Shown here: piece by piece, positions 1 to 33,428 of the stretch
How the letters are laid out: the number at the start of each line of letters is the position of its first letter
How positions within the stretch are numbered: the stretch's first letter is position 1
Source: Ignavibacteriota bacterium
Lineage (GTDB): Bacteria > Bacteroidota > Ignavibacteria > Ignavibacteriales > Ignavibacteriaceae
NCBI GenBank assembly: GCA_013285405.1
Contig: CP053446.1
Coordinates: 372,001 to 436,000, forward strand
Length of the DNA stretch: 64,000 nucleotides
Direction of reading: 5' to 3'
Position numbers and translations under genes: made by a program
Notes under the pieces: generated by a model
Seen by the model: only the letters and a program-made list of their open reading frames with translations
What the model was told of the DNA's origin: nothing
Database searches by the model: none

Positions 1-939
1 TCCAAGTGCATCATCATCCAGTTCAATATTTCGTCCAACAAAACCTGTAAGTACACGAGCAGCTCGAACAACTACTACATCCTTACTCACTGCATACTCA
101 CAAGCTTCAACACAGGCTTTTGGCATATTGCCATTACCTAATCCACTTGTAACAATTCCTTTAGATCCAAAATCAACCGAAGCTTTAATCAAATCTCCGG
201 GTGCATTTTCGTAGATAGCAATAATATCAACTCTTGGTAAGCTTGTTAATCCATCAACGCTGAACGGTGTTTGATAAGTAAATTTTTTATCAGGATAATC
301 GAAAAAATTAATATCTCCATAATTTACAGTTCCCAACGGTCCAACACCGGGAGATATAAATGTTTCAACAGCAGTAGTGTTACTTTTAACAACAGCGCGA
401 GCAGAATGAATTAAATCATTTGCAACAACCATAACTCCGCGATCCCAGGAATCTTTGCTTCCGGCAACTGCAACTGCATTGTAAATATTTAGCGGACCAT
501 CCGCACTCAATGCTGTTGAAGGTCGCATAGAACATGTAAGCACAACAGGTTTTTTAGATTTCAGAACAAGATTCAGGAAGTAAGCAGTTTCTTCCATTGT
601 ATCTGTTCCGTGTGTGATTACTATTCCATCAACATCATCCTGTTTTAATAATTCATTGCAGTGTTTTGCAAGTTTTAGCCATACTTCATCACTCATATCC
701 TGACTACCGATATTTGAAATTTGTTCACCACTTACAATTGCGATTTCCTTAAGCTGTGGTACAGCATTAATTAATATTTCTACACCAACTTGCCCGGATT
801 GATAACCTGATTGAACTTCAGTTGGTGCAGCCCCGGCAATTGTACCTCCTGTAGCAAGAATAACTACGTGAGGAAGATCTTGTGCAAAGAGATTAAATGA
901 AAGTGCTACGACTATTAAGAAACCAAAATGTTTTTTCAT
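1..939 (-). CDS. ansB: Type II L-asparaginase, periplasmic (C-terminus beyond window)
   Basis: Hydrolyses L-asparagine to aspartate and ammonia. The minus-strand frame is open from an ATG at 939 to the window edge (313 codons), so the C-terminus is missing. Residues 1-20 form a signal peptide ending in FAQ, which points to periplasmic export. The family's first active-site motif is seen as ATGGTIAG (Thr33 as nucleophile) and the second as HGTDTMEE. A segment rich in Ser/Thr and Gly (SMRPSTALSADGP) follows, as in class II enzymes. It lies downstream of a small secreted protein and malic enzyme on the same strand, which suggests a role in amino-acid catabolism. The family assignment is secure; asparagine versus glutamine preference is not. 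Confidence 0.93.
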   Translation of the reverse strand, partial: MKKHFGFLIVVALSFNLFAQDLPHVVILATGGTIAGAAPTEVQSGYQSGQVGVEILINAVPQLKEIAIVSGEQISNIGSQDMSDEVWLKLAKHCNELLKQDDVDGIVITHGTDTMEETAYFLNLVLKSKKPVVLTCSMRPSTALSADGPLNIYNAVAVAGSKDSWDRGVMVVANDLIHSARAVVKSNTTAVETFISPGVGPLGTVNYGDINFFDYPDKKFTYQTPFSVDGLTSLPRVDIIAIYENAPGDLIKASVDFGSKGIVTSGLGNGNMPKACVEACEYAVSKDVVVVRAARVLTGFVGRNIELDDDALG

Positions 940-24775: not shown

Positions 24776-25024
24776 ATGAAAGTCACCACGCTACCTGAAC
24801 AAGGGAAAGAAAGCAAAGGCTTTATAAGTTCACACGAAATTGTGAACAAAACAGATTTAGTAAATCGAAGTTTAGTCCAGGGTGTTGTAAAAGAACTGGA
24901 AGAAAAGGCTGTTAAGTTAGGTGCAGACTGCATAAGCAATTTAAAATTAAAATATTTAGCAGTTCCTTCTGGTTTCGGTCTTGAGTTGGTCGTCGTCGCA
25001 GAGGCAACGGCAATAAAATTATAA
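24776..25024 (+). CDS. YbjQ/DUF74-like small protein
   Basis: 82 residues with a strong ribosome site (AAAGGAG, 8 nt before ATG). The opening KVTTLPEQGKESKGFISSHE and the end AVKLGADCISNLKLKYLAV...GLELVVVAEATAI follow the YbjQ/DUF74 pattern ('TT..... G......G....A...GA.AV......' with a closing strand 'VSVSGTAV'). The larger protein at 25053 repeats the same layout. YbjQ-type proteins form pentamers and have been called heavy-metal-binding; the role inside a phage-like element is unknown. Confidence 0.55.
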   Translation: MKVTTLPEQGKESKGFISSHEIVNKTDLVNRSLVQGVVKELEEKAVKLGADCISNLKLKYLAVPSGFGLELVVVAEATAIKL

Positions 25025-25052
25025 AATTTTAATTAGAAAGGAGATCACAATA

Positions 25053-25643
25053 ATGGGACAAGGATATAGACTTGCCTATGAAAAGGCACACCAAAAGTTG
25101 AGAGAAGAGACTGAAAGACCTCTAAGAGTTAAAGTTTCAACCTTACCATTCGTCAATGGAAAATCGTTGGGATACGTTTCAGTATTCCAGAAAATAAACA
25201 TTTCAACATTGAGTCCAGACCTTAAAATAGATGATAACATTATACAAGCCTTACAAGTAGAAACAGATCGTCGTGGTGGGAACTTTCTTTCTAATCTCAA
25301 GATAAATTATATTCAAGATCAAGGACAGCCTGGTATTCTATTGGCTTACGGGTCTGGAGAATCAATGCTAACAAGTGCCTATGAGATGTCGATTGCACAA
25401 CCAAGGACTACTTCCCCACTGAAATCAACAGAAGACGATGCTTCTCCTGAATTAAAAGAAATCCTAAGAATATTGAATGGGGAGAATGTAGAGAAAACTT
25501 TACCAACACTTGCCGTGATGTTAGGTGGAGTCTATAAAAAATCAGTAGAAGTTCATAATAAAGCAATTGAGCTCCAGGCGGTAGACAAAGGTCTCAGTTA
25601 CGAAATTGCTGTAAGGGAATCTTATACAGAATTGGTAAAGTGA
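25053..25643 (+). CDS. YbjQ/DUF74-like protein with extra C-terminal region
   Basis: 196 residues, AGAAAGGAG before the ATG. Residues about 24-105 (RVKVSTLPFVNGKSLGYVSV ... GGNFLSNLKINYIQDQGQPG) parallel the whole 82-residue protein encoded just upstream, pointing to a duplicated domain. The rest, after a Ser/Asp-rich linker near residue 125, is predicted helical (LKEILRILNGENVEKTLPTL). No catalytic motif. The pair lies directly before the structured leader and tape-measure gene, so a structural or assembly role is possible but unsupported. Confidence 0.55.
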   Translation: MGQGYRLAYEKAHQKLREETERPLRVKVSTLPFVNGKSLGYVSVFQKINISTLSPDLKIDDNIIQALQVETDRRGGNFLSNLKINYIQDQGQPGILLAYGSGESMLTSAYEMSIAQPRTTSPLKSTEDDASPELKEILRILNGENVEKTLPTLAVMLGGVYKKSVEVHNKAIELQAVDKGLSYEIAVRESYTELVK

Positions 25644-25666
25644 AAATAGAATTTTAAGTAGAACAG

Positions 25667-25777
25667 ATGAAAATGATTTTAGGTGGTTGCTTGTGGTCTC
25701 TTGGTGGTAAAGAATACTCCTTTACACCAACAAATAGCAGAGGCTTTTCTTATGAAGCTATATCGTCCATTTCATAA
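25667..25777 (+). CDS. Possible 36-residue leader ORF
   Basis: An ATG at 25667 opens a 36-codon frame that stops at 25775-25777, inside the arm of the terminator-like hairpin at 25736-25792. Its ribosome site is weak (GTAGAACAG). The product has Gly/Ser/Trp and no known fold. Ending inside the hairpin is what an attenuator leader peptide would do. It may equally be chance. Confidence 0.25.
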   Translation: MKMILGGCLWSLGGKEYSFTPTNSRGFSYEAISSIS

Positions 25778-25798
25778 TTAATTGTCTCTGCTTTTTTA
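25701..25798 (+). ncRNA. Structured leader with terminator-like hairpin before tape-measure gene
   Basis: A hairpin pairs TTGGTG-G-TAAAG (25701-25712) with CTTTACACCAA (25720-25730), 11 bp with one bulge. A second pairs AGCAGAG (25736-25742) with CTCTGCT (25786-25792) and encloses TTATGAA/TTCATAA (25750-25756/25771-25777). A T-run follows (CTTTTTTATT, 25791-25800), and the next start codon is at 25822. This is the layout of a transcription attenuator or terminator. The tail CTTTTTTATT is identical to that of the leader at 28653-28777. Confidence 0.55.
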
Positions 25799-25821
25799 TT
25801 GAATTTAAATGAAAGAGAATA

Positions 25822-27993
25822 ATGGCTGAATCAACACAAACGTTAGTATTTAAACTTATTATTGATGGGAAAGAAGCACAAGCAACACTTGATCTTACCA
25901 AAGGTGAATTCGTTGAAACCGGAGTAGCTGCAACCACAGCAACCGAACAAATCAAAAAAGCATATCAGGGCTTAACTGCTGAAGCTCTAAAACAAAACCA
26001 GGTTACTGAGGGTAATGTCGAAAGTCTTACTGCGTACATTAAAACACAAAATCTTTCAGTTGATGTAATTGAAAAAACAATACAGGTTCTTGATACAGAA
26101 ACAAGAACACTTGCAGTTGACAGCGAAGCGTGGAAAAAGAAAATGGTTGCATCAACAAATCTTAAAGCTGCACTTGGTGGAATAATTCAACAGCAAACTG
26201 CATATGGTAAAGCAAATCAACAAACTTTGCCAGGTGTAAACAGTATGAGGATGGCAGTACAACAATTTGGATATGTGCTAAATGATTCACAAACCTTTTT
26301 TGTGAATGCAAGAATGGGAATGATGGGTATAGCTAACAACATACCTATGATTATTCAATTATTCCAGGCAGCAAAAAAGGAAGCCGGTGCAAATGCAAGC
26401 ATGATGAAACTACTGACAAGTTCAATTACCGGAGGTGGTGGATTAATAATTGGAATAAATGCATTGATGCTTGTGATGCAATTGCTCCCAGGTTTGTTTG
26501 ATGATACCACTGAAGCTGCTACTAAGCAAAAAGAAGAAATTGAAAAACTCAGAACGGAGTATGAAAAGCTTACACAGGCACAAATAAAGAGAAAGCAGAC
26601 TGATGTTCAAACTGAACTCTCACAAATGACTCAAGAGTTGGGGGGAAAATATGGATGGCGAAAAGAATTCTTAGATGCATTGCCACTTGGGATGGGAAAA
26701 TATCTGGCGTCCTTCAAGGAAATGAACGATGAGGAAAAGGAGAGATATGAAAATTTACTAAATCAAAATCAAGCATTGACTGAAGCTGCTGCAAAAGTTG
26801 GATATACTAAGGATTTAGAAAACCAAATCAACCAATTATTGGAAAAGCGAGAGACGATAAAGGACCCTTCTGCATTGAGAGCGTTTGATGATTGGATATT
26901 GGAACTAAAGAAAAAACAAAAAGAAGCAGGATTGGATGAAACTAATTGGGACAAAGAAAAAGACAAGCAATTTAAAACTGCATCAGAGCAATTAGAATTA
27001 TCACAATCACACGCAACAAGAATGGCTGAGATTGAAGGCAAAAGCGACAGAGATATTCTTGAGTTGAAAAAACAGCAGCTTGCTGAACAGGTAAAACTTT
27101 ATGAGAATTATGGCAAAGATGTTACTGCATTGCTTTATGAACTCGCTGAGACCGAGGCTGCACTGCAAACAGGGAAAAAAGTTAAAGTTAAATCAGCATT
27201 TGATCCGAGTGGGAAAAGCAGTAGTGCAACCGGAAATGAAAATGAAGATAGAAATAAGTTTTTAAAACAGTTCGAAGATGATCAATTAAAGGAGCTTGAG
27301 ATTGAAGAATCAATAGCTTTAAAGCGTGCAGAAACTTTTTCGAATGCAGAAGAATTAAAAACAAAAATTCAAAAGTATTATTTAACAAAGAGAACAGAAC
27401 TTGAAGAAAAGGCACAAGCTGAACAGCTTAAATTCACTTCTGATTATTTAGGACAGGCAGCTGGTTTATTCGCTAAACATACTGCTGCATATAAAGTGCT
27501 ATCTGTAGCACAAGTTCTCATAGATACTTACGCATCTGCACAATCAGCATTTAAAGCAATGGCAGGTATTCCGGTTGTTGGTCCCGCACTGGGAATAGCT
27601 GCCGCAGCAGCAGCTGTTTTAGCTGGTATTCAAAGAGCAAATGCTATTGAAGCAATAAACATAAAAGAGATTGGTGGTTTTGCTGAAGGTGGAAGATTGC
27701 CAAAAGGCAAGATGGGTTTCTTTGAAGGTTTCCATAATGAAGTAATTGCACCTGAAGAAGATTTTAAAACTTATTCTACAGAGCTTGTAAAGCATGCACT
27801 TGCTGATGCAAGGAATTATATCAGCATAAATCAATCTTTAAATACTGATTTATTCGCTGTTAAAGAAGAGATAATAGCCCTAAAAAACACTTTGATAAAT
27901 GGGGGGATTAAGTCGATCGCATATTACGACAATAGCGAGGTTAAAAAAATAAGGAGATTGGGTTCAAGTTTATACAGAAGATCTAAAGTATGA
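25822..27993 (+). CDS. Phage tail tape-measure-like protein
   Basis: 723 residues, mostly helical and coiled-coil (about 230-560: long Glu/Lys/Gln runs). Membrane-like stretches are GGGLIIGINALMLVMQLLPG (about 205-224) and GIPVVGPALGIAAAAAAVLAG (about 585-605). The C-terminal segment GGFAEGGRLPKGKMGFFEGF...EVIAPEEDF is typical of tail length tape-measure proteins. Such proteins set tail length and help DNA entry. No tail tube, baseplate or head genes accompany it, which is odd. Its start lies 30 nt after a terminator-like hairpin. A second candidate function is a large secreted coiled-coil protein, but the C-terminal motif argues for tape measure. Confidence 0.78.
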   Translation: MAESTQTLVFKLIIDGKEAQATLDLTKGEFVETGVAATTATEQIKKAYQGLTAEALKQNQVTEGNVESLTAYIKTQNLSVDVIEKTIQVLDTETRTLAVDSEAWKKKMVASTNLKAALGGIIQQQTAYGKANQQTLPGVNSMRMAVQQFGYVLNDSQTFFVNARMGMMGIANNIPMIIQLFQAAKKEAGANASMMKLLTSSITGGGGLIIGINALMLVMQLLPGLFDDTTEAATKQKEEIEKLRTEYEKLTQAQIKRKQTDVQTELSQMTQELGGKYGWRKEFLDALPLGMGKYLASFKEMNDEEKERYENLLNQNQALTEAAAKVGYTKDLENQINQLLEKRETIKDPSALRAFDDWILELKKKQKEAGLDETNWDKEKDKQFKTASEQLELSQSHATRMAEIEGKSDRDILELKKQQLAEQVKLYENYGKDVTALLYELAETEAALQTGKKVKVKSAFDPSGKSSSATGNENEDRNKFLKQFEDDQLKELEIEESIALKRAETFSNAEELKTKIQKYYLTKRTELEEKAQAEQLKFTSDYLGQAAGLFAKHTAAYKVLSVAQVLIDTYASAQSAFKAMAGIPVVGPALGIAAAAAAVLAGIQRANAIEAINIKEIGGFAEGGRLPKGKMGFFEGFHNEVIAPEEDFKTYSTELVKHALADARNYISINQSLNTDLFAVKEEIIALKNTLINGGIKSIAYYDNSEVKKIRRLGSSLYRRSKV

Positions 27994-28250
27994 TGAACTC
28001 AGAATTAGAAAAAATAATTAAAGAGATACCCGGTTACAATATTTCAATGCCATTGAATAAAATTCCATTAGAGATATTTAACCTAAAAACACAATCAGCA
28101 AAACTTGATGCTCTTGCAGCTTTTGTAATTGAATATATAGCAGAAAAAGGATACAAAGAGGAAGAAGAAGTTAGGGCTGATTTTGAGGAATTATATGCAC
28201 GTATTCTTGCAGATGAAATTGCACAATTTTTATCGGACTATGGACGATGA
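27990..28250 (+). CDS. Small acidic protein following tape measure
   Basis: 86 residues; the ATG overlaps the preceding stop by 4 nt (ATGA), so translation is coupled. Predicted helical and acidic (EEEEVRADFEELYARILADE), with no known motif. Its coupling to the tape-measure gene suggests a partner or chaperone role, inferred from position only. Confidence 0.55.
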   Translation: MMNSELEKIIKEIPGYNISMPLNKIPLEIFNLKTQSAKLDALAAFVIEYIAEKGYKEEEEVRADFEELYARILADEIAQFLSDYGR

Positions 28251-28353
28251 TTCCAAAATATGTTAAATAGTAAATTGAGCAGCTTTTCTAATTTCATCCT
28301 AAACGCTCATAGATTGCAAATTGGATGATTCCAATTAATATACGAGTAAGATA

Positions 28354-28623
28354 ATGGTAAGAAAAAATAAAGTCGCTGAAATCGAAAATCCTATCAAGAG
28401 AAAAATCCTTGAAGAGATGTCATTAAAAAAGTTTGCGAAACTCGCTGGTGTAACTCCTCCCGATCTGTCTTATTATCTTAACAAAAATAAAAAAGTTAAA
28501 GCATCAAAAAGAAAAAAGATAAAAGTAACTTTAATTAAGTTGAGATTTGTTCCTAAACCTTCAGTGAGACAATATGCAATTTGTGAACACTGTGGAAGTA
28601 AAGTTAGGATTTTAACCAAATAA
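28354..28623 (+). CDS. HTH protein with C-terminal Cys pair
   Basis: 89 residues. SLKKFAKLAGVTPPDLSYYL (about 24-43) is an XRE-type HTH; a Lys-rich stretch (KKVKASKRKKIKV) follows and the C-terminus has CEHCGSKVRI, half a zinc ribbon. A DNA-binding role is likely. Gap of 103 nt before it holds a small hairpin around ATTGGA/TCCAAT. It precedes the structured region at 28653-28777. Confidence 0.6.
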   Translation: MVRKNKVAEIENPIKRKILEEMSLKKFAKLAGVTPPDLSYYLNKNKKVKASKRKKIKVTLIKLRFVPKPSVRQYAICEHCGSKVRILTK

Positions 28624-28633
28624 TTTTTATGTT

Positions 28634-28789
28634 ATGGCTAGAATTTCTAAAAACACAAGCGGATACCGGCCCGTCAGCCGTTATTTTATTTTAAACCATT
28701 TTAATTTCCCAGGATTCCGCTTGTTCCGTAAGGCTGGCGGGTGTGCTTGTGTACACAGAAAAATCCTGGGCTTTTTTATTAATTTCTAA
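28634..28789 (+). CDS. Possible 51-residue ORF overlapping the structured RNA
   Basis: An ATG at 28634 opens a 51-codon frame running through the whole structured region to a stop at 28787-28789, 19 nt before the next gene. The product would be basic and Cys-containing. No ribosome site is visible. It is listed because it is the main competing explanation for the region; the interleaved complementary segments are better explained by RNA structure. Confidence 0.25.
   Translation: MARISKNTSGYRPVSRYFILNHFNFPGFRLFRKAGGCACVHRKILGFFINF
28653..28777 (+). ncRNA. Candidate pseudoknotted regulatory RNA/attenuator
   Basis: Three complementary pairs are interleaved: A 28655-28663 with A' 28716-28724 (9 bp); B CCCGTCAGCC 28670-28679 with B' GGCTGGCGGG 28732-28741 (10 bp, one G-U); C CCCAGGATT 28708-28716 with C' AATCCTGGG 28762-28770 (9 bp), followed by CTTTTTTATT. 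Order A-B-C-A'-B'-C' gives pseudoknots, not nested hairpins. ACACAAGC (28653-28660) can instead pair with GCTTGTGT (28745-28752), forming a nested stem with B/B'. C/C' plus the T-run is a terminator ending 30 nt before the ATG at 28808, so an attenuation switch ahead of the transposase genes is plausible. No match to a family I know. Confidence 0.6.
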
Positions 28790-28807
28790 AATCACAGGAG
28801 GATTTTT

Positions 28808-29140
28808 ATGAACAATTACTATATCAAATACGCTGACGAACTTATCAAAATTGTTGGGCTGGGAGAATGCCTTAAAGATGCACAGATTGGCCTATTAGAA
28901 GCAAATAAGGATATTGAAAACCATATCTGGTTAACCCAAGTAATCACGCATAAGCTTCGTGGTGTTATAAAAAAAATGGAGGAAGAACCGGAACAAGAAG
29001 ATGTTAAGATAACAGAGGCGAGTTATTTGGATTTGAAAAAGGCTGCTGATACAATTATCAACGAATTAAATAAACTTCAGAGGGAAAACTCTTCCCTGAA
29101 AAAAAAATTAGTTAAGTATGAAGCGAAAAACCGAAAATAA
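28808..29140 (+). CDS. Small coiled-coil protein upstream of transposase
   Basis: 110 residues with a strong ribosome site (ACAGGAGG). Helical, with a C-terminal leucine/lysine coiled coil (INELNKLQRENSSLKKKLVKY). The last 23 nt overlap the transposase start at 29118, so the genes are coupled. In Mu-like phages small proteins sit beside A and B; the function here is unknown. The gene follows the structured leader at 28653-28777. Confidence 0.6.
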   Translation: MNNYYIKYADELIKIVGLGECLKDAQIGLLEANKDIENHIWLTQVITHKLRGVIKKMEEEPEQEDVKITEASYLDLKKAADTIINELNKLQRENSSLKKKLVKYEAKNRK

Positions 29141-31088
29141 TCTTTACTCTGGCTTAATTAGTATTAAAGAGCTTGCCAAGTTAATTGACTCAGTTAACTG
29201 GCAGGCTGCTTATAATAATCTTCGTCAAAAGGTTGTACGCGGAAAATTTAAATCATACCAACTAATTGACGGAAGAGGATTTGTTAGTTTAGATGATGCT
29301 TTAGTTCCCGATTTTGTTAAGCAAAAATTTTCAAAAACAACCTCCCTTCAAATACCATTGGATCACTCGATAATACAAAAAGCAGAGTCATCAAAGGAAC
29401 TCTCCGGAGATCAACTGGATTTTGCTTTAGCAGCTGCTGAACTTGTGGGAGAATTTATAAAGTATAAGAATCAACCAATGTTTAAAGGCAAGAAAGCTGC
29501 TGCTGAAAAAATATTTTCTGATGCTTACAACAATGAATCTTTAAGTTCATACCCCAACATATTTAAAATTATTGGGAAGCGTTCATTTAAGACTCTGAGA
29601 ACCTGGGAAAACAAATATGTATCATCAGGAAAAGATTACAGAGTTTTAATCCCTCAATACAATTCAGAAAAGTCGAGCAGTATTACTCTTGATGAGCGTG
29701 AAGTGCTTACTCGTTTATTACTGCACCCTGGTAAACCCTTAATAACTGAAGCAGTAAGACAATCAATTAACTACTTCGAGATGAAAAGATTTCCTCATAT
29801 TAAAAGCGACAAGACCTATAAAAGATACCTTGAGAGTTGGATGAAAGAAAACTTTGCTGAGTATATCTTCTATACTGAAGGTGAAAAAGGTCTTGACGAT
29901 AAAGTTTTACCATACATTGAACGTGACTGGACATTGGTGGAAGTTGGTGACATCATAATTATGGATGGACACGTTAACAATTATGAAATAATTAATCCAT
30001 TCACTGGTAAACCAAAACGAATGGTAACAATGGGTGCAATTGATGGAAGAAGTCAATACCTTGTTGGGTACGACATTGCAATAACTGAAAATATTCTTTG
30101 CATTGCATCCACCCTCAGACGTGCTATACTTCAACTCGGAAAAATTCCGAAAGTAGTTTACATTGATAACGGGAAAGCATTTTCAGCAAAATATTTTCAT
30201 GGTGATGATTTAGAAAAATTAAATCCTCTATTCTCACGACTCGGGATAAAAACCATTTTCGCTAAAAAATACCATGCACAAAGTAAACCGATAGAACCTT
30301 TCTGGGGTTGGATGGCTGAGCTTGAAAGATTGATCCCAACTTATGTCGGCACGTCAATAGAAATGCAGCCACCAAGAATGAACAGAGGTGAATTCATTCA
30401 TAGAAAAATCTATGACAATGCAATGCAGAAAATAACTGTTGATATTTTTGCTGCTCACCGAGCTATGGCTTGGTGGTTAGATCAATACCATAATAGACCT
30501 AAACAATCTGGTCATTTAAAAGGATTAACACCGGCACAGGTATTTGAAGCTGGCAAAGGACAGGGAGTTGATAAAGCTAAACTCAATTACCTGATGATGG
30601 ATACCACAGTTGCAACTCTGTACCGTAAGGGAATAAGGATGTTTGGAACGTGGTATTGGAATGATTCACTTTTCGGTCAGCAAATAGATTCAGGTGATGA
30701 AATAACAGTTAAGTATGATTTGTTTGATCGTGATTCAATTCTTGTTTATGACAACAAAGGAAATTTTGTTTGTGAAGCTAAAGAGGTTAACAAAATTCAT
30801 CCGGCAGCAGATCTGCTCGGAAAACCTGAACAACAGGAAGAATTCAAAAAACAGATTGCACATAAAGAAAAACTTAAATCTGCTGTTGTTGGCTCAGCAA
30901 GAAAATTCGCAGAGGAAGAAATATTCCCTGCTGTTAAAAAGCAATTAAACGATGCTAAAATTCTTCAGTTTCCTGATTCTAATACTGATGATACAATTGA
31001 AGAAAAAGCACCAAAACAAAAAATCAAAAAGAAAAATATTTCTGATAGATGGACGCTGACAGAAGATAAAATTAAAAAAGCAAATTAA
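29118..31088 (+). CDS. Mu-type DDE transposase (MuA-like)
   Basis: 656 residues. The N-terminus (LISIKELAKLIDSVNWQAAY) resembles the MuA/HARE-type DNA-binding region, and an RNase-H-like catalytic core follows. Candidate catalytic residues are Asp283 (IIMDGHVN), Asp350 (VYIDNGKAF) and Glu393 (QSKPIEPFW), spacing D-66-D-42-E, within the range for integrase-fold transposases. A Mu-transposase C-terminal beta-barrel-like part (LYRKGIRMFGTWYW, KYDLFDRDSILVYD) and a Lys-rich tail for ATPase contact follow. It cuts and joins the element ends. It lacks the Mu end-binding repeats in identifiable form. Confidence 0.9.
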   Translation: MKRKTENNLYSGLISIKELAKLIDSVNWQAAYNNLRQKVVRGKFKSYQLIDGRGFVSLDDALVPDFVKQKFSKTTSLQIPLDHSIIQKAESSKELSGDQLDFALAAAELVGEFIKYKNQPMFKGKKAAAEKIFSDAYNNESLSSYPNIFKIIGKRSFKTLRTWENKYVSSGKDYRVLIPQYNSEKSSSITLDEREVLTRLLLHPGKPLITEAVRQSINYFEMKRFPHIKSDKTYKRYLESWMKENFAEYIFYTEGEKGLDDKVLPYIERDWTLVEVGDIIIMDGHVNNYEIINPFTGKPKRMVTMGAIDGRSQYLVGYDIAITENILCIASTLRRAILQLGKIPKVVYIDNGKAFSAKYFHGDDLEKLNPLFSRLGIKTIFAKKYHAQSKPIEPFWGWMAELERLIPTYVGTSIEMQPPRMNRGEFIHRKIYDNAMQKITVDIFAAHRAMAWWLDQYHNRPKQSGHLKGLTPAQVFEAGKGQGVDKAKLNYLMMDTTVATLYRKGIRMFGTWYWNDSLFGQQIDSGDEITVKYDLFDRDSILVYDNKGNFVCEAKEVNKIHPAADLLGKPEQQEEFKKQIAHKEKLKSAVVGSARKFAEEEIFPAVKKQLNDAKILQFPDSNTDDTIEEKAPKQKIKKKNISDRWTLTEDKIKKAN

Positions 31089-31101
31089 ACTCTTGAATGT
31101 A

Positions 31102-31524
31102 ATGAATAAAATTTTAAGCATAATAGATCGTGTAAAGAAACACAAAGCCATAGGAATTATTTTTAACCTTCCACCTGATGAGGAGGCTAAGATTGAAAAA
31201 ATACTTCTTGATGAAAACCACATTATTATCAAAGGCACAGATGCTTATAGAGGCGAGATGCTTCGATATAGACTCGGTAAAAAATTCAAAGTCAAGTATT
31301 TCCGTTTTTGTATGCTTCCTGGTTTGTTGGATAACGGAATTATATGTATAAAAGAAGCGGACAAAATTAAGCCAAGTTACTCACGTGTGTTTTATGATTT
31401 TCATCAATACAAAATTCCTTTGCTTCTTTTGATGAACAGCGATGCACAAATGAAAGATTTAAGGATGCTCAATTCTTATAAGTATGTGCTTACTATTGAA
31501 CAGAACTTTTTAACACTTAAATAG
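31102..31524 (+). CDS. Probable degenerate MuB-like pseudo-ATPase
   Basis: I start at the ATG at 31102 (140 residues); a TTG nine nt upstream is less likely. KAIGIIFNLPPDEEAKIEK (15-33) can be laid over KIGVITGVAGCGKTIAV of the downstream ATPase, but the Walker A Gly/Lys/Thr are replaced. GIICIKEADKI (79-89) parallels the Walker B RLLIIDESE, and PLLLLMNSD (106-114) parallels sensor-1-like MLLVGT. It is shorter at both ends and lacks the HTH. So it looks like a catalytically dead paralogue of MuB, encoded between transposase and ATPase. This is inferred by eye, not by alignment software. Confidence 0.45.
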   Translation: MNKILSIIDRVKKHKAIGIIFNLPPDEEAKIEKILLDENHIIIKGTDAYRGEMLRYRLGKKFKVKYFRFCMLPGLLDNGIICIKEADKIKPSYSRVFYDFHQYKIPLLLLMNSDAQMKDLRMLNSYKYVLTIEQNFLTLK

Positions 31525-31534
31525 TGAGATTAAA

Positions 31535-32485
31535 ATGAATGAACAAATAATCAGCGATTCTACAATACAACTTACAAGAGAAAGACTTAATGAATTCATT
31601 AAGCAAAATCCTCCCCTAACAAATAAAATTATTGCAACTAATACAGGACTCTCGCATGGTACAGTTTCACTATTCAGAAACAACAAATATTCTGGAAACA
31701 ACGCAGAGGTTGCGTCGTTAATTGAAAACTATCTTGATATTGAAAAATCAATCGAGACCAGGATAAGCAGAGGACATCTAAAATTTGCAATGACAACCGC
31801 AGCAAAAAGCATTTTCACAATTGCAAACTATGCTTTAACAGAAGGGAAGATCGGTGTTATAACCGGTGTAGCCGGTTGTGGTAAAACTATTGCAGTTCAA
31901 GAATATAAGAAAAAAAATCCAACCGTAATATTAATTGAAGTATCCCCGATAGTAACTCAGAAATTTTTGATTCAGCAAATAGCACAAGAGTTGAAAATAC
32001 CTTTATACACTTACAAAAATGAATCGTCTAAAATTGTTCCAAGCTTTAACCTTTTCAGTGAAATTGTTGATAAGTTGAGGGATACCAGAAGACTTTTAAT
32101 AATTGATGAGAGTGAAAATAACACTGTCTCTTGTTTGGAAGTAATAAGAAGAATACAAGATTTTACGAGTATTGGGATGTTACTTGTCGGAACGAAAAAA
32201 TTATTAGACCGCCTCCGCGGTCCGAGAAGAGAGCTACAGCAACTTTTTTCGAGAGTCGGCATTCAAAAAGATATAGACTTGCTTCAACGTAGTGATGTTA
32301 AAGCGATTTTATCAGTTAACTATTCTGAAGCATTAAAGTATGCAGATAATTTTTTGCAAGTCAGCAAGAACAACGGAAGGTTACTCGAACATCTTATTAC
32401 ATTGGTAAAGAAAACAGTCCAAGAAACAGGCGATGAACTGTCAACTGATCTAATCGACGAAGCAGCTGCTTCATTGTTAACTTAA
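31535..32485 (+). CDS. MuB-like AAA+ transposition ATPase
   Basis: 316 residues. An N-terminal HTH (NKIIATNTGLSHGTVSLF, 30-47) and an AAA+ core: Walker A GVAGCGKT (111-118), Walker B LLIIDE (187-192), a sensor-1-like LLVGT, then the Arg-rich LRGPRRELQQLFSRVG. MuB-type proteins bind DNA as ATP filaments, select targets and stimulate the transposase. It lies 447 nt past the transposase stop, after the pseudo-ATPase. Family members without an HTH are TniB/TnsC; the HTH favours MuB. Confidence 0.88.
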   Translation: MNEQIISDSTIQLTRERLNEFIKQNPPLTNKIIATNTGLSHGTVSLFRNNKYSGNNAEVASLIENYLDIEKSIETRISRGHLKFAMTTAAKSIFTIANYALTEGKIGVITGVAGCGKTIAVQEYKKKNPTVILIEVSPIVTQKFLIQQIAQELKIPLYTYKNESSKIVPSFNLFSEIVDKLRDTRRLLIIDESENNTVSCLEVIRRIQDFTSIGMLLVGTKKLLDRLRGPRRELQQLFSRVGIQKDIDLLQRSDVKAILSVNYSEALKYADNFLQVSKNNGRLLEHLITLVKKTVQETGDELSTDLIDEAAASLLT

Positions 32486-32509
32486 TAATTTAAATTTGAG
32501 GTGTCCGTT

Positions 32510-32824
32510 ATGATAGATAGTAGATTAAGAAAAAAATGTTTGAACTTATTTTTGAGCAGATACACACTTGATAACATAGTCAAACAAACCGGTGTCTCTA
32601 AAAAAACATTATATAATTGGAAGCAACAGGACAAGTGGGATGAGATAAAAGAAGTAAACCTCACTGATGCTGAAAAAATAGAAAATAGACTTTCTGGTTT
32701 AGTATTAAAAATGATTGATAAGGCGAATCAAAGTGCTGACAAACAATCACTTGCTAATCTTGAATATGCTGTTAAAATTTATGATGAGCACCAGAAGACA
32801 TCGCTCGTAAAATCAAAGAGATAA
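32510..32824 (+). CDS. HTH protein (DUF1804/terminase-small-subunit-like)
   Basis: The ATG at 32510 is preferred over the GTG at 32501: GAGG lies 8 nt before it. 104 residues: LSRYTLDNIVKQTGVSKKTL (about 14-33) plus YNWKQQDKWDEIKE is the HTH + 'W....KW..' pattern found in small terminase subunits and DUF1804 proteins of Mu-like phages. The rest is helical. No large terminase is present, so a packaging role cannot be inferred; DNA-binding regulator is as likely. Confidence 0.6.
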   Translation: MIDSRLRKKCLNLFLSRYTLDNIVKQTGVSKKTLYNWKQQDKWDEIKEVNLTDAEKIENRLSGLVLKMIDKANQSADKQSLANLEYAVKIYDEHQKTSLVKSKR

Positions 32825-33152: not shown

Positions 33153-33279
33153 CGGTGTCCGGTCATAGTTTTTCATCATTAAGTAATGATTTCTAAATAA
33201 TACTTAATGGTCTGAGAGTTGTAGAATTATCTCTGCACAACTTCTTTTGAAAATAGAATTGTGATCATACAACAACGAG

Positions 33280-33315
33280 TGGCTGTCCGGTAAAAATCTG
33301 GACAGCCATTTTTAT
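33280..33315 (+). terminator. Rho-independent terminator near right end
   Basis: TGGCTGTCC (33280-33288) pairs with GGACAGCCA (33300-33308), 9 bp, and is followed by TTTTTATTTT. It would end plus-strand transcription from the element before the host CPXCG gene. Confidence 0.8.
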
Positions 33316-33428
33316 TTTACACATGACAAATATTGATTTTCATTTTTTGTAAATGTACTGCGAGTGTTGCGTTTGATTTAAAAATTATTTTAGTTTCGGT
33401 AGGTAATAACAATTACTAAGGTGAAACT

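Follow-up and report, generated by a model that had tools for sequence, protein, structure and literature searches.

A few phages and satellites of enterobacteria are known to use RNA control of the kind considered here (c4, CI, IsrK, sar), and in some phages such small antisense RNAs keep lytic genes off. Of these RNAs, c4 is matured by processing, and the CI RNA of P4, which is also processed, acts by premature transcription termination. In P1 and P7, the c4 RNA pairs around the ribosome-binding site of the antirepressor gene ant, and the complementary sequences are thought to be borne by loops (PMC12197685). The P4 CI RNA is organised as seqA-seqB-seqC, its antisense segment having a complementary site on either side, upstream as well as downstream, and IsrK of the Gifsy-1 prophage is a terminated short RNA acting on a read-through mRNA that encodes downstream products, among them an antirepressor (PMC4825925). 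The radC RNA motif (RF01754) is listed for Proteobacteria, and the STAXI motif is an RNA of mobile DNA that neighbours antirestriction, ssb and integrase genes (PMC2864571).

The leader described here lies in a window of 64,000 nt, the whole stretch of DNA analysed, which was taken from a 3.86-Mb chromosome. It is best read as one copy of a phage-encoded family of antisense leader RNAs of about 130 nt that end in a terminator, with a probability of roughly 0.66.

Genomic context of the leader

The leader site is located within a truncated Mu-like prophage and is surrounded by the following genes:

28354-28623, + strand: HTH (LacI-like) ORF of 89 aa upstream of the leader
28808-29140, + strand: helical ORF of 110 aa directly 3' of the leader, without a Pfam family
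29118-31088, + strand: MuA-like transposase (Mu-transpos_C, rve)
31535-32485, + strand: MuB/TniB-like AAA ATPase

The 3' end of the 110-aa ORF overlaps the start of the transposase gene by 23 nt. The gene order of the prophage remnant (24776-32824) is odd, as a tape-measure-like gene (25822-27993) precedes the early region, which consists of the HTH, transposase, MuB and small-terminase-like (32501-32824) genes. No head or large-terminase gene was recognised near the remnant. A strong single hairpin between the remnant and the host genes on the ftsZ side (33181-33400, -22.7 kcal/mol) is probably a terminator. Queries with the transposase protein gave no matches in the genome and the viral contigs, and no leader of this type lies directly 5' of the transposase in transposase relatives with 50-59% identity.

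Relatives of the leader RNA

A covariance model built from the window sequence alone detected one true relative among chance matches in 164 genomes of the order, located upstream of radC (L020). The nested fold shared by the terminated RNAs of the window and L020, paired by hand and by energy folding, served as model R3. Its matches in other genomes of the class are L078 (E 1e-8), L089 (9e-4) and L093 (2e-9), where the E-values are per genome and rough. L115, L120 and L142 were found via sequence patterns in IMG/VR and then with R3. The relatives identified by covariance searching thus number seven, of which four come from other genomes of the class and three from viral contigs, and the eight members, including the window copy, score between 34 and 155 bits with R3. 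The complementarity between the loop and the ribosome-binding region described below was used in no member search. A weak R3 match of 33 bits at L016:12766-12892 (- strand), in a prophage with the closest transposase relative (59%), is a tentative ninth relative.

At the gathering score, Rfam had no match for the window, L020, L078, L089 and L093, nor at E<=10 for 28300-29200 and the L020 leader, in agreement with an earlier sequence-only reading of the site, which knew no family with this pattern. A BLAST search of the window leader against phages returned weak chance matches only, and the same search with the L093 leader against phages and plasmids returned nothing. Several candidates were dropped. 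The strong interleaved pairings of L005 and L009 are coding sequence, and the IMG/VR match L041 and further sequence patterns yielded nothing beyond chance matches and the L020 locus already found. An HDV-like ribozyme, the radC motif, STAXI and a type III toxin-antitoxin RNA were discarded because there is no Rfam match, the leader is present as a single copy and the layout differs.

The loci are phage loci, mostly Mu-like, with MuA/MuB, GemA and Mor as Mu-like neighbours. L089 is part of L092, a Mu-like prophage that encodes MuA, MuB and terminase, L120 adjoins GemA and Mor, and the viral contig L115 carries a phage terminase gene. The L020 element carries a tape-measure-like gene and a tyrosine-integrase-like gene, the latter assigned by sequence reading, and L078 is situated in a tail-gene cluster, also by sequence reading. 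The next gene encodes a Bro-N protein in L115 (1.6e-8), a KilA-N protein in L120 (4e-10) and RadC in L020 (2.9e-40); in the remaining members it encodes a small helical protein without a family. Bro-N and KilA-N are domains common in phage antirepressors, and such antirepressor-linked domains are found downstream only in these two members, the others having RadC or no known function. Mutual comparison of the small downstream proteins gave no convincing homology.

Some loci have further features. An inverted TnpB-like (IS200/IS605) gene adjoins the leader RNA in L078 (185-1258, - strand). In L093, the leader RNA and its 68-aa gene are flanked by two similar HNH-endonuclease-like ORFs (829-1347 and 1875-2384), which were called by sequence reading, with no Pfam match for the first. 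The element with the radC leader in L020 also contains a second, unrelated interleaved pairing at 2438-2532 (CTGGATA/TATCCAG with AATCCCTTTTGATTG/CAATCAAAGGGGATT and a T-rich tail), which precedes an 83-aa ORF and is not matched by R3.

Conserved fold and predicted extent of the RNA

The conserved fold comprises a small hairpin (T1), a stem (P3) closing a three-way junction from which hairpins a and b extend, and a T-run. In the window, these elements and the two related sites R1 and R2 are placed as follows:

28642-28664, + strand: R1, start of the RNA, a 20/23 near-copy of R2 and complementary to the apical part of hairpin b
28667-28680, + strand: T1 hairpin CGGC-CCGTCA-GCCG, kept in 8/8 members, with double changes in 3/4 pairs
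28708-28716, + strand: P3, 5' strand of the terminator stem, with 62/62 homologue cells paired and 28 double changes
28717-28740, + strand: hairpin a, cap CC-GNRA-GG, with 33/33 homologue cells paired and 14 double changes
28741-28756, + strand: hairpin b, antisense loop UUGU at 28747-28750, with 95% of homologue cells paired and 16 double changes
28762-28777, + strand: predicted intrinsic terminator, P3 3' strand (28762-28770) and T-run (28771-28777)
28781-28803, + strand: R2, ribosome-binding region of the downstream gene, with AGGAGG at 28796-28801

Across the eight members, 98.5% of 205 cells are paired in this nested fold, 19/26 pairs show double changes and covariation is 0.753 vs 0.258 for shuffled and 0.05-0.10 for slid controls, sliding of the partners lowering pairing to 37-46%; the alignment behind these counts was fitted to the model and therefore favours it. 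Without the model, unconstrained minimum-energy folding gives the same structure for the terminated RNAs of the window and L020. The U-rich tract following T1 (28681-28695) is nearly the same in L020. Two motifs, the T1 loop CCGU(N)A (window 28671-28676) and UUCCGNRAGG of hairpin a (28724-28733), are conserved in most members.

As in intrinsic terminators, the stable stem P3 is followed by a U-run. The sequence-only reading had proposed a structured RNA leader with a terminator-like stem and a T-run ending 30 nt before the next ATG; the distance from 28777 to the ATG at 28808 is as it stated, and the seven relatives support such a leader. A sigma-70-like promoter (TTGACA/T-16..18-TATAAT-like) is present in five members, and thus in most relatives, with the end of its -10 element 6-7 nt before R1 (shuffle p 0.064 in L020, 0.003 in L089, 0.013 in L093, 0.002 in L115 and 0.001 in L142). 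No clear promoter was found before R1 in the window, L078 and L120. The promoter position, together with the T-run of P3, places the RNA from R1 to this T-run.

Antisense loop and proposed mechanism

The sequence of the hairpin b loop is different in every member, yet complementary to R1 and R2. For example, the loops UUCCAUCGAA of L020, UUCCUUUAGA of L078, GUCUCCUAUGGA of L089 and UUCCUAUUGG of L142 are complementary to UUCGAUGGAG, UCUAAAGGAG, UCCAUAGGAGGC and CCAAUAGGAG, respectively. In six members, pairing of the loop to the member's own R2 reaches -15.8 to -24.4 kcal/mol. The total energy of the duplex between the RNA and the ribosome-binding site proved uninformative and was replaced by a permutation test on contiguous helices. 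With eight members, the own assignment of loops to R2 is the best of 40320 permutations, and the corresponding value for R1 and the loop is 68/40320.

The window copy has a loop-R2 pairing of only 6 bp including one G-U (CUUGUG/CACAGG), which ranks 4 of 8 with a loop-shuffle p of 0.09. Because this match is weak, antisense pairing is not apparent from the window copy alone. It is weak in L120, too, which lacks GGAGG. The window copy is probably a weakened, perhaps partly decayed, member of an active family. The tentative relative L016 keeps UUCCGUGAGG, P3 and the complementarity between R1 and the loop, but there the loop is mismatched with the ribosome-binding site of the following 62-aa ORF, which speaks against the antisense reading.

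The computed fold, loop complementarity, terminator and promoter position suggest the following mechanism. Transcription would start at R1 and usually stop at the P3 terminator; the resulting short RNA would consist of the T1 hairpin and of the three-way junction that P3 forms with hairpins a and b. On transcripts reading through P3, the R2 of the next gene would be exposed to the complementary loop displayed by hairpin b, and translation of this gene would be blocked, either in trans by the short RNA or in cis by the leader itself. R1, which lies where the RNA begins and nearly repeats R2, would compete for the loop. For the window copy, this would make the 110-aa gene the target; as that gene overlaps the start of the MuA-like transposase by 23 nt, the transposase would be affected only through coupling. 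The control of transposition that had been suggested for the site would therefore be indirect at best, and in the relatives the gene that follows is radC, Bro-N, KilA-N or a small unknown one. Since the putative targets are of the antirepressor type (Bro-N, KilA-N), RadC or small unknown proteins, the likely purpose is to silence a gene for phage induction or an accessory gene, and the RNA may have a role in lysogeny. A more speculative extension is that the fast-changing pair of loop and ribosome-binding site acts as an immunity code in an RNA family of Mu-like phages of Bacteroidota-type hosts. The RNA of a prophage might then silence only those phages, incoming or resident, that carry a matching ribosome-binding site, with the R1 decoy setting the threshold.

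Alternative explanations

Four complementary pairings had been described for the site by the sequence-only reading, and all of them are found in the window where it had placed them:

28655-28663/28716-28724, + strand: A/A', ACAAGCGGA/TCCGCTTGT
28670-28679/28732-28741, + strand: B/B', CCCGTCAGCC/GGCTGGCGGG, with one G-U, extendable to 11 bp (28669-28679/28732-28742)
28708-28716/28762-28770, + strand: C/C', CCCAGGATT/AATCCTGGG, with base 28716 common to A' and C
28653-28660/28745-28752, + strand: 'competing' pairing of R1 with hairpin b (P1), ACACAAGC/GCTTGTGT

The alternative that survives best, although it is rather unlikely, is an attenuator or riboswitch acting only in cis, in which the R1-loop pairing alternates with the P3 terminator or with R2-loop pairing, switched by a ligand, a protein or the ribosome and without any trans-acting RNA. 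This would agree with the competing pairing P1, which is partly kept in the relatives (34/47 homologue cells, 72%) with 17 double changes, and with the window leader, whose best fold is P1 with B/B' before the 3' strand of P3 is made and the terminator fold afterwards. Moreover, the loop can also pair with R2 in cis, as it does in the folds of L089 and L142. However, the members have no conserved core resembling a ligand pocket, and the variable part consists of exactly the antisense loop and its targets, which is more readily explained by antisense recognition than by ligand sensing. Action in cis would also be compatible with action in trans.

Autoregulation by a phage protein that recognises both the structured RNA and the repeats R1 and R2 is improbable. 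R1 and R2 are near-repeats, and UUCCGNRAGG and the T1 loop CCGU are conserved, as such a protein could require, but R1, R2 and the loops differ completely among members and stay complementary, which a single binding protein does not explain.

Less probable still is the original model of three interleaved stems (A-B-C-A'-B'-C') forming a pseudoknotted switch that controls transposition. Its estimate that the segments exceed chance was borne out in the window: an interleaved triple of equal strength occurred in 0/3000 dinucleotide shuffles of 28640-28790, any interleaved triple in 7/3000 and a single helix matching the strength of B, an 11-bp helix here, in 1/3000. The next-best triples in the 64-kb window reach -22.6 and -26.3 vs -48.2 kcal/mol at the leader; the whole folding energy of 28630-28807 is ordinary (z -0.77). 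In the relatives, however, A/A' is paired in 21/53 (40%) and B/B' in 30/63 (48%) homologue cells, which is about the chance level of the slid controls (37-46%), whereas the nested fold is fully conserved. A/A' arises from a coincidental repeat of the R1 complement in A'. B/B' is strong in the window copy, but its register is not conserved; it shows one double change among relatives and a shifted counterpart in L020 alone. The covariance search that had been proposed as a check thus supports C by its compensatory changes, but not A and B as conserved stems, and C/C' is the nested terminator stem P3 rather than part of a pseudoknot. As a whole, the earlier interpretation is partly supported.

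Constraint on the 51-residue frame at 28634-28789, which is indeed open, can be dismissed as very improbable, since its peptide has no relative in the viral contigs, the corresponding frames of the relatives encode dissimilar peptides, most with stops, and the changes preserve pairs.

Comparison with known systems

Like c4 (RF01695), the antisense leader RNA is a short phage RNA just upstream of its putative target in the same operon, and its loop is complementary to the downstream gene's ribosome-binding site; this c4-type feature is found at the family level (1/40320) and is weak in the window copy. The c4 model RF01695 has no match at the gathering score in the window, L020, L078, L089 and L093. 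In contrast to c4, the leader RNA folds into a terminator-closed three-way junction and ends at its own terminator, its apparent targets are only sometimes of the antirepressor type, and it occurs in Mu-like and other phages of Bacteroidota-type hosts. With the P4 CI RNA it shares two target sites flanking the antisense segment (R1-loop-R2), but its downstream site overlaps the ribosome-binding site and it carries its own terminator. The proposed combination of a short terminated RNA and a read-through mRNA resembles IsrK, which, however, activates translation and has no sequence or model match to the leader RNA. The radC motif is a leader of radC-type genes, and among the members L020 likewise precedes radC, but RF01754 has no match in the window's genome or L020. 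STAXI is likewise an RNA of mobile DNA, but it is a pseudoknot repeated two or three times, whereas the leader RNA is single, nested and without an Rfam match.

That an unrelated RNA following this logic occurs in Mu-like phages whose hosts belong to a distant bacterial group points to repeated evolution of the strategy. R3 provides a model to find more members, the specificity code between loop and ribosome-binding site is directly testable, and the leader RNA may point to the function of the small unknown phage genes downstream. Taken together, the family probably combines a new fold and new hosts with a known logic, working like the P1 c4 or the P4 CI RNA while being a member of neither by sequence model.
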